From: Pseudomonadota bacterium
Lineage (GTDB): Bacteria > Desulfobacterota > Anaeroferrophillalia > Anaeroferrophillales > Tharpellaceae
DNA length: 48,487 nt
Direction: 5' to 3'
Assembly: GCA_011049115.1 (NCBI GenBank)
Contig: DSCM01000036.1
Location: forward strand, 1 to 48,487
Numbering within the stretch: the stretch's first letter is position 1; every line of letters starts with the position of its first letter. The translations under genes and the position numbers were made by a program. The notes beneath the pieces were generated by a model. It had not been told where the DNA came from and made no database searches. It saw only the letters and a program-made list of their open reading frames with translations. Of the stretch, positions 24,859 through 29,767 are shown one piece after another.

Positions 24859-25383
24859 TCATAGTTTTTTCTTTTCAAAAAAGACGAACATGGCCAGGGT
24901 AAAGACGGCGAGGACGATGATTACCAGCCAGTGACTGACGCCGAGCAGCTGCGGCAGGGTGACCTTGCCGAAATTACCCAAGGGGATGATGTGGGTTTTC
25001 ATGAAGGGATAAACCAGGGCGTAGGCAAAGCCTCCGGCCAGCATGCCGAAAATCCCCCAGATGCCGTCAAGACGTCCTTCGCCCACTGCTCCGACCGCGG
25101 TTCCCGGACAATAGCCGAGCAGCGCCCAGCCGATTCCAAATAATGAACCACCGATGACCTGGGCTCCGATGGAGGTTCCCTTGAGACTCATCTTGATCTG
25201 GCCCAGGTCGTAAAGCAGATGAATGCCGATCGCGGCGACGATGATCGAAGTGAGCATGAATTTGAAAATCGTCATGTCGCGAAAACGCAGGGCTCCAACC
25301 TGTTTGTCGTAACTCAGAACCTGGGCTTTCTGCAGAAGAAAGCCGAAAATAATGCCGGTGATCAGGCCGGATAGCAGCGTCAT
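24859..25383 (-). CDS. YeeE/YedE family transporter, C-terminal-type half
   Basis: This 174-residue membrane protein has about five helices. Its conserved motif GYCPGT (Cys92) is the signature of the second half of YeeE/YedE proteins, which take up thiosulfate or related sulfur species through a chain of cysteines. In many bacteria, as here, the two halves are separate genes (PmpA/PmpB-like). Its ATG overlaps the TGA of the first half by four bases, so the two are made together. A link to selenium uptake (YedE is also named in selenium metabolism) is possible but not shown. Confidence 0.85.
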   Translation of the reverse strand: MTLLSGLITGIIFGFLLQKAQVLSYDKQVGALRFRDMTIFKFMLTSIIVAAIGIHLLYDLGQIKMSLKGTSIGAQVIGGSLFGIGWALLGYCPGTAVGAVGEGRLDGIWGIFGMLAGGFAYALVYPFMKTHIIPLGNFGKVTLPQLLGVSHWLVIIVLAVFTLAMFVFFEKKKL

Positions 25384-25916
25384 GAGCGCCCTCCTTCAGA
25401 AAAACCATAAATCAGGTTGGCAACCAAAGCGCCGATCAGAAAAAAACCGCCGAGAGCGATAAATCCGCTGATTGAAAGTTGAGCCAGACCGCTCAACCCG
25501 TGGCCGCTGGGTCAGCCTCCGGCCAGACGGGCGCCGACCATGCCGATGAGCCCGCCGACAAAGGCGACCAGCCCGCGCTGGCCGGCTCCGGGGCCGAATC
25601 GATGTCGCCACATGTCGGGAACCGCCTGAAGCTTGAACGCCCCTGAAAGTCTGGCCGCGATAAGAGCTCCAAGAAAAATTCCGATGACGAACATCAGTTG
25701 CCAGTCGGGCAGGGCGCCGGCGCCATACTTGCCGTTACTGGTGGTGAAGTATTCATAGTTCGAGGTCTCGATGCCGAGGCTTTCCATGATGGCTGCGCTC
25801 AGGCGGGGAAAGGTGGTCGAGGTGCCGAAAAATTTGCCGGTGAACAATGCCGATAAGATCAGCAGAATTCCGGCCAGAGCCCCGGCCAGGTAGGGATTCC
25901 AGGTTTTTCTGAACAT
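25380..25916 (-). CDS. YeeE/YedE family transporter first half, with in-frame Sec
   Basis: Read through a TGA at 25512-25514, the gene encodes 178 residues. Codon 135 is the TGA, and the protein reads RLAGG-U-PSGHGLSG. In ordinary YeeE/YedE proteins this place holds the essential Cys of the AGGC-x-SGHG motif. Downstream of the TGA the frame continues with a further helix (ISGFIALGGFFLIGALVANLIYG) and ends in a four-base overlap with the next half. A strong SECIS hairpin follows the TGA. The start has AGGAG six bases upstream. The Sec would sit in the substrate path that passes sulfur or selenium through the membrane (inference). Confidence 0.9.
25478..25514 (-). promoter_or_regulatory. SECIS element of the yedE-like gene
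   Basis: Fourteen bases after the UGA, GTTGAGC (25491-25497) pairs perfectly with GCTCAAC (25478-25484) around the loop GGTCTG. The stem can be lengthened by G-U pairs. The GGUCUG loop matches, as I recall it, the loop of the E. coli fdhF SECIS that SelB binds. Confidence 0.85.
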
Positions 25917-26084: not shown

Positions 26085-27539
26085 CTATCTGACTTCCCTG
26101 AGCTCTATGTTCAGGGCGCGGGCGATGCCCGCGCCGTAAGCCGGGTCGGCTTTCAGGCAGTTGCCGAGATGACGCAATTGAATCATTTTCGGCGCATCCT
26201 GAATTGAGCGCGCCGTATTTGCAAATAGGGCCAGCTTTTGTTCCGTGCTCATCAGGCGAAAGAGTTTGCCCGGCTGTGAATAATAATCATCGTCTTCGCG
26301 CTGGTTCCAGTGGTCGGCGGCCCCTTCCAGGCTTAACGGAAGTTCGGCGTAATCCGGTTGCTCCCGCCATTCGCCATAGCTGTTGGGTTCGTAGGCCAGG
26401 GTACTGCCGTGGTTGCCGTCAACCCGCATCTGGCCGTCGCGATGATAGCTGTGGACCGGACAGCGTGGGGCGTTGACCGGGATCAGGTGATGGTTGACGC
26501 CCAGCCGATAACGCTGGGCGTCGCCATAGGAAAACAGGCGCCCCTGAAGCATCTTGTCGGGTGAAAAGCCGATACCTGGTACGATGCTGGCGGGATTGAA
26601 GGCCGCTTGTTCGACCTCGGCGAAATAATTTTCCGGATTGCGGTTCAGCTCAAAATAGCCGACCTCAATCATCGGGTAGTCTTCGTGAAACCAGACCTTG
26701 GTCAGGTCGAAAGGGTTGTAGGGGCAGGTCGCGGCCTCTTTTTCCGGCATCACCTGAATGAACATGGTCCAACGCGGAAAATCGCCATTTTCAATATTTT
26801 CATAAAGGTCGCGCTGATGGCTTTCCCGGCATTTGCCGACCACCATCTCGGCTTCGATATCGGTCAGGTTCTTGATGCCCTGCTGGGTTTTAAAATGAAA
26901 CTTGACCCAGTAGCGTTCGTTGGCGGCGTTGATCAGGCTGAAGGTATGACTGCCGAAACCGTGCATGTGGCGATAACTGGCCGGAATGCCCCGGTCGCTC
27001 ATAACGATTGTGACCTGATGCAGGGCTTCAGGCAGCGAGGTCCAGAAATCCCAGTTATTGCAGGCGCTGCGAAGATTGGTGCGAGGGTCGCGCTTGACGG
27101 CGTGGTTGAGGTCGGGAAATTTCAGCGGGTCCCGCAGAAAAAAGACCGGCGTGTTGTTGCCGACCAGATCCCAGTTGCCCTGTTCCGTGTAAAATTTAAG
27201 GGCAAAACCCCGAATGTCGCGTTCCGCATCGGCGGCTCCGCGCTCGCCGGCAACCGTCGAGAAGCGGGCGAAGAGCTCGGTTTGTTTGCCGATTTCAGAA
27301 AAGATGCGGGCTTTCGCGTAGCGGGTGATGTCGTGGGTGACGGTGAAACGGCCGTAGGCGCCGGAGCCTTTGGCGTGCATGCGCCGTTCCGGAATCACCT
27401 CACGGTCAAAATGCGCCAGTTTTTCAAGAAACCAGACATCCTGCAGAAGTTGCGGTCCCCGCCGGCCGGCGGTCATAACGTTCTGGTTGTCGGCAACCGG
27501 AGCGCCGGCGCTGGTGGTCAGTTTTTTCGGCTCAGTCAT
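26085..27539 (-). CDS. Monofunctional heme catalase (small-subunit type)
   Basis: This 484-residue protein has the whole catalase fold. It shows [12 protein letters not shown] with the distal His55, [11 protein letters not shown] with the distal Asn near 128, and [14 protein letters not shown] with the proximal heme-ligand Tyr. The last motif normally has Thr where Ala is found here. Length and lack of a C-terminal flavodoxin-like domain place it in the small-subunit clade. It splits hydrogen peroxide to water and oxygen. The ATG at 27539 has GGAG upstream at a good distance. It follows the cytochrome c peroxidase gene by 70 bases and is likely in the same transcript. Confidence 0.96.
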
Positions 27540-27609
27540 GTCGTTCTCCATGGATGGGGCGATGGTTTTTGATCATTATGAAATCTGGGTGGATCGCGGT
27601 GTATTTGTC

Positions 27610-28675
27610 TTAATGGGCGCTTTTCTCGCCCATCTGACCCAGGTACGGTTTGGGGGTGTTATCCCTGGGAGCGGGCAGAAGCGGATGTTTGACTTCCGGC
27701 TGCTTGCCGGTGGTGGTTTTCAGAAAAGCCGTAACCTGGGCGACCTCTTCCTGGCTTAAAACCGAATCCAGCTGAGCTGTGCTCATGATTTCAACCGCTT
27801 CCCGCAGGGACCAGATCACCCCGGAGTGAAAATAAGGGGTGGTCAGCTCGATGTTACGCAGGGATGGGGATTTGAAAACGAACCGGTCATCGTCTAGTGC
27901 GGTTACGCTGTAACGGCCCTTATCGCCGGCGAGGATTTTTTCGGCCGGGGTTTTGATCACGCCGAAACCATAACAGTCGTCGCCGCCCATGTTGACGCCG
28001 CTGTGACAATCGACGCAGCCCCTGTCGAGAAAAGCCTGCAGCCCTTTGCGCTCGGTATCGTTAAGAGCCTTGGTCTTGCCTTTGAGAAAAAGGTCAAAGA
28101 GCGAATCCGGAGTCAGCAGGGTGGCTTCGAAGACTTCTATCGCCTTGGCCATGTTATCGAAAGTAACCGGGTCTGTTTGGCCGGGAAAGGCTTTTTGGAA
28201 CAGCTCGACGTATTCAGGCATGCTTTTCAGGGTTTTAATGACACTTTCCGGCGTATTGTTCATTTCCACTCCGGCCTGCACCGGACCTTTGGCCTGTTCC
28301 GCCAGGTCCTTGGCCCGTCCATCCCAGAACTGAGCCACATTGAAGACCGAGTTTAAAACCGTCGGCGCGTTGCGCGGCCCCCGCTTCCAGCCATGGCCGG
28401 TAGAGGTTTCCTGATAATCAGCCCCGCCCAGGCCGACATTGTGACAGGTGTTGCAACTGATCAGGGCGCTGCTTGAAAGTCGGGGTTCAAAATAGAGCAT
28501 CGCCCCCAGTTCAAGCTTGGGCGGGTTGGCCGGGTTGCCGGCCAGCTGCGGAGGCGTGTCGGGAATCGGTTTGAAGTGGTCGCGGGCGTTTTCCATGAGC
28601 GTGTCACCGGCCTGGGCGCTGCCCAGGCAGAAAACGGTAAAAAAAGACTGAAAATCAGAAGCGCGTTTTTTTCAT
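27610..28675 (-). CDS. Di-heme cytochrome c peroxidase, signal peptide frameshifted
   Basis: The mature part is intact and carries two c-type heme sites, CNTCH and CVDCH, in the order of CcpA/MauG-type peroxidases that reduce hydrogen peroxide in the periplasm. The natural start appears to be the ATG at 28673-28675, which follows AAGGGAAG, but its own frame stops after six codons. A good signal peptide (LLIFSLFLPFSAWA) is read in a second frame and the mature protein in a third. At least one indel is needed, most simply in the run of seven A after the ATG; two if the best signal peptide is right. An ATG at 28596 would give a protein without a signal. Confidence 0.85.
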
Positions 28676-28837
28676 GATCTTTATCTTCCCTTGGTGGCAT
28701 GGTTGACAGTGATTGGCTTTTAAGGGTGCAAGTCGTTACTTGGAGGTCACAGAAATGATACGGTTACAGCTCCGGCTTGCAGTTACTTTCTGCGGTTAAA
28801 GAAGGCCCCTTAAAGCGGACCATTTAAATTTATCCGA

Positions 28838-29094: not shown

Positions 29095-29526
29095 TCAGGA
29101 AGTCTTAAGACAATCCCGACAAATTCCGGTGATGGTCGCTTGTTTATAGAGCATCCGTCCCCAGGTCCGGTATTGCTCCGGAATTTCCAGCTGATCAAAG
29201 GTTGCCCAGGAAATATCCGTGATTTTATGACACGCGGTGCAGATCATGTGGTGGTGGGGCTCGATGTTACCTTCAAAACGGGCCTGGCTTTGGCCTGTAA
29301 CCACACGGCTGATCAGGCCGTGTTCTTCCATGGTGTGGAGATTGCGATAGATTGTGTCCAGGGAGATCGTCGGCATGTTTTTTCGCAGTTCGAGGTAAAG
29401 GGTTTCCGCCGTGGGATGATCTTTGCTGTTCACCAGGGTTTTAAAGATTTCCAGACGCTGCTGGGTCAGGCGTAAACCGTAACGCTGGAAAGTCTCTTCG
29501 AAATCTGCTAAACGATAAGTCGGCAT
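29095..29526 (-). CDS. Fur-family peroxide-type regulator (PerR-like)
   Basis: This 143-residue protein has an N-terminal winged helix (about 1-80) and a metal-binding dimer domain. His37, His91, His93 and Asp104 occupy the same numbered positions as the regulatory metal ligands of B. subtilis PerR, and Glu85 replaces the fifth, Asp85. The structural zinc site is CTAC (96, 99) with CRDC (136, 139). Asp rather than Glu at 104 is a PerR-like trait. I expect iron-dependent peroxide sensing by His oxidation and control of the adjacent peroxidase, catalase and seleno-peroxiredoxin genes (inference). The ATG at 29526 or 29532 fits; no clear ribosome site was seen. Confidence 0.88.
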   Translation of the reverse strand: MPTYRLADFEETFQRYGLRLTQQRLEIFKTLVNSKDHPTAETLYLELRKNMPTISLDTIYRNLHTMEEHGLISRVVTGQSQARFEGNIEPHHHMICTACHKITDISWATFDQLEIPEQYRTWGRMLYKQATITGICRDCLKTS

Positions 29527-29767
29527 AAGCATACGCGTTGGTTTCAGCGTTGTAAGAAATTGGATTGGATTAACAGAACATAAAAGATTTTGTTTGTCAA
29601 TATTATTTTCCCGGCGGCAACGAAAATCGGCAAAAGATTTGGTTTTTGGTTCGGGAACTTTGGGTTGGCAGAAGTTATTCTGATGGGGACGCAAAGCCCC
29701 GCAATCCCAATCCGGCCTTTAGGGCCATAAATAACGTGAATAAAAACAGATTTTTGGAGGCATCGCA

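Follow-up and report, generated by a model that had tools for sequence, protein, structure and literature searches.

Organization of the Locus

The window, that is, the whole stretch of 48,487 nucleotides that was analysed, carries on its minus strand two adjacent half-length genes of the YeeE/YedE family of transporters. The first, yeeE1 (25916-25380, minus), is a PmpA/YedE1-like half with a good ribosome site (AAGGAG) at its start; its frame is open except for a single TGA at codon 135 (25514-25512, minus), and it terminates at the TGA of 25382-25380. Read through the internal TGA as selenocysteine (Sec), it gives a membrane protein of 178 residues, Sec135 included, with the segment ...ARLAGG-U-PSGHGLSG..., in which Sec135 stands where homologues have the invariant Cys of their GGC-P-SGHG motif. 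The second, yeeE2 (25383-24859, minus), is a PmpB/YedE2-like half of 174 residues that overlaps yeeE1 in the four bases ATGA (25383-25380), as had already been noticed in a sequence-only reading of this DNA. Both products exceed the gathering cut-off of Pfam PF04143 (27 bits), with 83 bits for yeeE1 and 58.1 for yeeE2, and the yeeE1 match (E=3.6e-23) covers profile positions 172-308 of 310. Alone, yeeE1 does not amount to a full-length YeeE/YedE protein but to one half of it, the downstream yeeE2 supplying the remainder, and AlphaFold returned a poor model for the lone yeeE1 half (pLDDT 68).

A profile built from 22 relatives of yeeE1 matched the thiosulfate transporter StYeeE, whose structure is solved (6LEO and others), with E = 2.7e-13 and placed Sec135 on Cys293 of StYeeE/TsuA, while the yeeE2 profile matched the N-terminal half of StYeeE and placed Cys92 on Cys91. 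In StYeeE, where Cys293 and Cys91 are 8.6 angstrom apart, the relay runs from Cys293 to Cys91 and reaches the cytoplasmic side with Cys22 (PMC11073785), and the split halves PmpA and PmpB contain one key Cys each, at positions matching those of yeeE1 and yeeE2 (PMC11582611). The partner gene adjoins 97 of the 98 yeeE1 homologues; all 97 partners keep Cys92, and none of them has a Cys at the position of Cys22. The gene features of the split PmpAB/YedE1E2 systems, namely adjacent genes for the N- and C-terminal halves with one Sec or Cys in each (here Sec135 and Cys92), are found in the window, and yeeE1-yeeE2 very probably encode a split YeeE/YedE importer.

Gene Neighbourhood

Downstream of yeeE2 lies a peroxiredoxin gene (24722-23988, minus) in which TGA replaces the codon for the peroxidatic Cys (FTFV-U-ATE, residue 88; Sec codon 24459-24461, minus), the second selenoprotein of the cluster. 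It follows yeeE2 in seven loci, that of the window included, with the TGA retained in all seven, and a hairpin (TTTCGGC-AGTT-GCCGAAA) comes after the TGA. Upstream of yeeE1 are a catalase (26085-27551, minus; PF00199 E=1.6e-190), a di-haem cytochrome c peroxidase (27610-28596, minus; PF03150 E=1.2e-55, also assigned by synteny), and a Fur/PerR-family regulator (29095-29592, minus; PF01475 E=5e-29); a PerR-box scan returned no convincing site. The catalase is seen at the yeeE1 locus in the window only, and in other members of the window's family the cytochrome c peroxidase is directly upstream of yeeE1, the recurring order in the family being cytochrome c peroxidase, yeeE1(Sec), yeeE2, and Prx(Sec). 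Outside this family, the neighbours vary and yeeE2 stays, the peroxidase neighbourhood being limited to the window's family. No persulfide dioxygenase, rhodanese, or TusA gene was identified beside the pair in the window.

Two further observations concern these neighbours. In two other loci with Sec forms (L065 and L102), a flavin-disulfide-reductase-like gene, identified by eye, lies downstream. Moreover, an apparent frameshift occurs at ~28590-28690 (minus) in the signal peptide of the cytochrome c peroxidase, with MKKTRF and ...FFTVFCLGSAQAGDTLMENARD in different frames, where relatives read straight through; it may be an assembly error or real.

The SECIS Hairpin

A perfect 7-base hairpin with a GGTCTG loop starting 14 bases after the TGA had been proposed as a SECIS element from the sequence, and it is indeed present (25476-25499, minus): the stem GTTGAGC/GCTCAAC forms seven Watson-Crick pairs, extended by two G-U pairs to nine in all around the loop GGUCUG. 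The element shows G in the first loop positions of a hairpin just downstream of UGA, as expected of a bacterial SECIS. Folded singly, the window hairpin has an unremarkable energy (z = -0.84, not significant) and, thus, the argument rests on comparison. Among Sec genes, the hairpin takes two forms, one with an 8-pair stem and a GGUCUG loop, which is the form of the window, and another with a GGUUC loop and a stem with one bulged base. In the two hairpin sets of Sec members, 95.8% of the stem cells are paired in each, and compensatory cells amount to 10 and 15, values reached in none of 500 shuffles, although these counts are inflated by relatedness among the sequences. Since the hairpin region codes for a conserved motif, the Cys relatives serve as the control, and they mostly lack the stem. 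The synonymous Gly codon of the loop is GGT in 40 of 42 Sec genes versus 4 of 53 Cys genes (Fisher p ~1e-19, which ignores relatedness), and two neighbouring Gly codons exhibit no Sec/Cys bias. As a separate observation, a Cys-form yeeE1 (L051, in G135) retains a near-perfect SECIS hairpin of 8 pairs with a GGTTCG loop and apparently represents a recent Sec-to-Cys change.

Selenocysteine Machinery

The genome of the window (2.64 Mb, 97% complete), which belongs to an uncultured bacterium, contains selA, selB, and a tRNA-Sec whose anticodon is TCA, as well as selD on contig C104, apart from the contig of yeeE1; the sequence-only reading had made its proposal depend on such genes, and none of them is missing. 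The selD match (L117, G000:C104:8091-9026) holds one in-frame TGA and, therefore, SelD of this genome is probably itself a selenoprotein. Among 39 tested genomes carrying the TGA form, selA was found at cut-off in 36, and the remaining three have tRNA-Sec and selB, so that their selA gaps are probably assembly losses. Nevertheless, the result agrees with the Sec reading without discriminating, since almost every sampled genome has selA, which was found weak when tried as a marker to tell Sec from Cys genomes. One Cys-form genome, G034, has neither selA, selB, nor tRNA-Sec. Two genomes that are 98-99% complete (L068 in G069 and L064 in G272) combine tRNA-Sec, selB, and a Sec-form yeeE1 with no selA match, which may reflect an assembly gap or another Sec synthase.

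Codon 135 across the Phylum

Of 395 genomes searched across the phylum, 116 contained relatives. In the better-scoring regions, read at the codon aligned with residue 135, TGA was found in 43, TGC in 36, TGT in 19, and any other codon in none. The TGA form is present in about 40 sampled genomes from many families, in which the reading frame, the partner gene, and the SECIS are also preserved, and seven of these genomes, the window's included, belong to the window's own family. The in-frame TGA noticed in place of the essential Cys is one of 43 against 55 Cys codons, and the homologue search suggested at the time yielded the TGA together with a hairpin that accompanies the Sec forms. Cys forms are common within the same clades as Sec forms, and mapping of the Sec/Cys state on the tree gave ~10 changes, five of them forced by well supported branches. 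In a plasmid collection, a single, distant relative was detected. Several genomes hold two copies of the first half at separate sites, one with Sec and one with Cys, as for L088 (G007), L094 (G140), L063/L112 (G258), L069/L113 (G374), L049/L101 (G082), and L059/L080 (G232).

The TGA could, in principle, be a real stop, in a gene undergoing decay or a half that has been truncated, or else a sequencing error, as is formally possible for any single draft genome. However, its recurrence in so many families with the rest of the gene pair intact, and the lack of TAA, TAG, or other residues at codon 135 in any relative, render this explanation scarcely credible; a sequencing error is very unlikely because the TGA is common to ~40 sampled genomes, and the same sharing led to the rejection of the pseudogene. 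Given that the TGA is conserved and followed by a SECIS, that the Sec machinery is complete, and that Cys alone alternates with TGA, codon 135 of yeeE1 almost certainly encodes Sec, a conclusion for which the support is comparative. Gene callers that treat TGA as a stop would truncate yeeE1 in roughly one in ten of the genomes sampled from the phylum. Moreover, since Sec and Cys have interchanged repeatedly in otherwise similar proteins, these natural pairs could make the benefit of selenium over sulfur in sulfur transport directly measurable.

As for the substrate, zero-valent or sulfane sulfur is predicted to be the main one and is the likely choice, since, among characterised proteins, the split importers of zero-valent sulfur PmpAB/YedE1E2 are the nearest relatives. 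The same selenoprotein pair could instead transport thiosulfate in a TsuA-like manner, for sulfur assimilation or dissimilation, as suggested by the profile match to TsuA/YeeE and by the relay of thiosulfate past Cys293 and Cys91 in TsuA (PMC11073785). Nevertheless, the window pair reaches 32-51 bits against TsuA equivalog cut-offs of 400-645 (41.5 of 400 and 38.4 of 645 bits), it is split, it has no counterpart of Cys22, and no YeeD/TsuB gene was seen among the genes next to yeeE1-yeeE2, all of which makes thiosulfate rather improbable; full-length TsuA identity was ruled out by the score and the absent Cys22. A transporter dedicated to selenium, whose Sec site would bind selenide or Se0 and feed SelD, is less probable still. 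The sequence-only reading had inferred a selenium-dependent transporter, YedE proteins of other lineages have a connection with selenium metabolism according to two papers (PMC5322559, PMC11582611), and the window's genome makes several selenoproteins. However, the first half scores 53.6 of the 350 bits required by NF033796 and has no match to the TIGR04112 profile, the second half scores 27.6 of 200 bits for the latter, selD is located on another contig, and Cys forms abound in the same clades; the selenium-specific YedE label was ruled out by score. Of the earlier proposals, the Sec at the essential Cys is well supported, and the selenium-linked substrate is not supported.

Proposed Mechanism and Role

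Taking the split sulfur importer as the preferred reading, SelB and tRNA-Sec would insert Sec at the UGA under the direction of the hairpin that begins 14 bases further on, a step for which the comparative support is strong, and the two halves would probably pair into one TsuA-like pore. Sec135, in place of TsuA Cys293, would act as the first relay residue, on the outward side, and would pass zero-valent sulfur in the form of polysulfide or persulfide, and possibly thiosulfate, to the partner Cys92 (TsuA Cys91). Because the third cysteine (Cys22) is absent, the sulfur would probably pass to a small thiol, by analogy with published relatives and in line with what has been proposed for YedE1E2. 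Selenols have a lower pKa and a faster exchange and, on general chemical grounds, the Sec selenol would quicken sulfur capture and release and resist over-oxidation. The likely role would be to raise cellular persulfide or thiol reserves under oxidative or sulfide stress, as suggested by the clustering with cytochrome c peroxidase and Sec-peroxiredoxin in the family and by the catalase in the window.

As a whole, the pair probably constitutes a Sec-form PmpA/YedE1 half with its PmpB/YedE2 half, functioning as a sulfur importer with a role in stress. The stress role fits the window's family best because the neighbours differ outside it, and even there the chances of an antioxidant function are about evenly balanced. 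A broader proposal, that throughout the phylum Sec is the outward-side nucleophile of a sulfane-sulfur import relay and that in the window's family this relay is part of a peroxide-defence cluster together with a Sec-peroxiredoxin, is tentative and somewhat doubtful. If true, the cell would have a selenium-dependent route for making antioxidant persulfides from sulfur taken up from outside. Selenoproteins are mostly redox enzymes, and the presence of Sec along the substrate route of a multi-helix membrane importer is a hint that selenols may serve as transport relays, not catalysts.

Comparison with Known Systems

The earlier impression that this is not a well-described selenoprotein is not supported as to novelty, since YeeE/YedE (PF04143, WP_012471001.1) is already tabulated among predicted prokaryotic selenoproteins in a 2026 review (PMC13188914), where the motif is given as GUxSG, and also in a 2022 review (PMC9312934); the window protein, which belongs to the same family and has the same Sec motif (here GGUPSGHG), is thus another member of a known selenoprotein family. 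In the texts searched, the coverage amounts to a table row and one sentence, in which SECIS, operon, partner, and distribution do not appear. The prior claim rests on review tables, as the YeeE selenoprotein was not found in the main texts of the cited primary papers (PMC2398784, PMC5029168), whose supplements may hold it. In the main texts of open-licence papers, no experimental work on a Sec YeeE/YedE was found. Nor was any description found there of the comparative evidence for SECIS in two forms, the partner pattern, the phylum-wide spread, or the Sec-Sec antioxidant cluster; the roughly ten Sec/Cys switches are a new detail.

As regards the second selenoprotein of the cluster, PrxU of Eubacterium acidaminophilum is reportedly a selenocysteine peroxiredoxin too (2001). 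Unlike PrxU, the Sec peroxiredoxin of the window is co-clustered with a Sec transporter. The Prx selenoprotein family on the GOS list (PMC2398784) is likewise of this type.

Within the transporter superfamily, YedE/FdhT and seleno_YedE (NF033796, TIGR04112) are selenium-linked, whereas the window pair falls far under their curated cut-offs and is not located beside selD. TsuA/YeeE of Spirochaeta thermophila and E. coli share homologous halves and the Cys293 and Cys91 positions, but the window's transporter is split in two, lacks Cys22, and scores below the equivalog level. The closest resemblance is to PmpA/PmpB of Serratia and YedE1E2 of Cupriavidus, which are likewise encoded by adjacent half-length genes with one chalcogen residue per half, at the Cys293 and Cys91 positions, and no Cys22. 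Expressed in E. coli, the Cupriavidus YedE1E2 imports zero-valent sulfur, with both Cys essential, and leads to the formation of glutathione persulfide and lowered ROS (PMC10812762). In contrast to these systems, Sec replaces Cys in the first half here, the halves, with 178 and 174 residues, exceed those of PmpA/PmpB in length (~130), and the neighbours are peroxidases instead of the ArsR-type regulator or persulfide dioxygenase that accompany PmpAB/YedE1E2.
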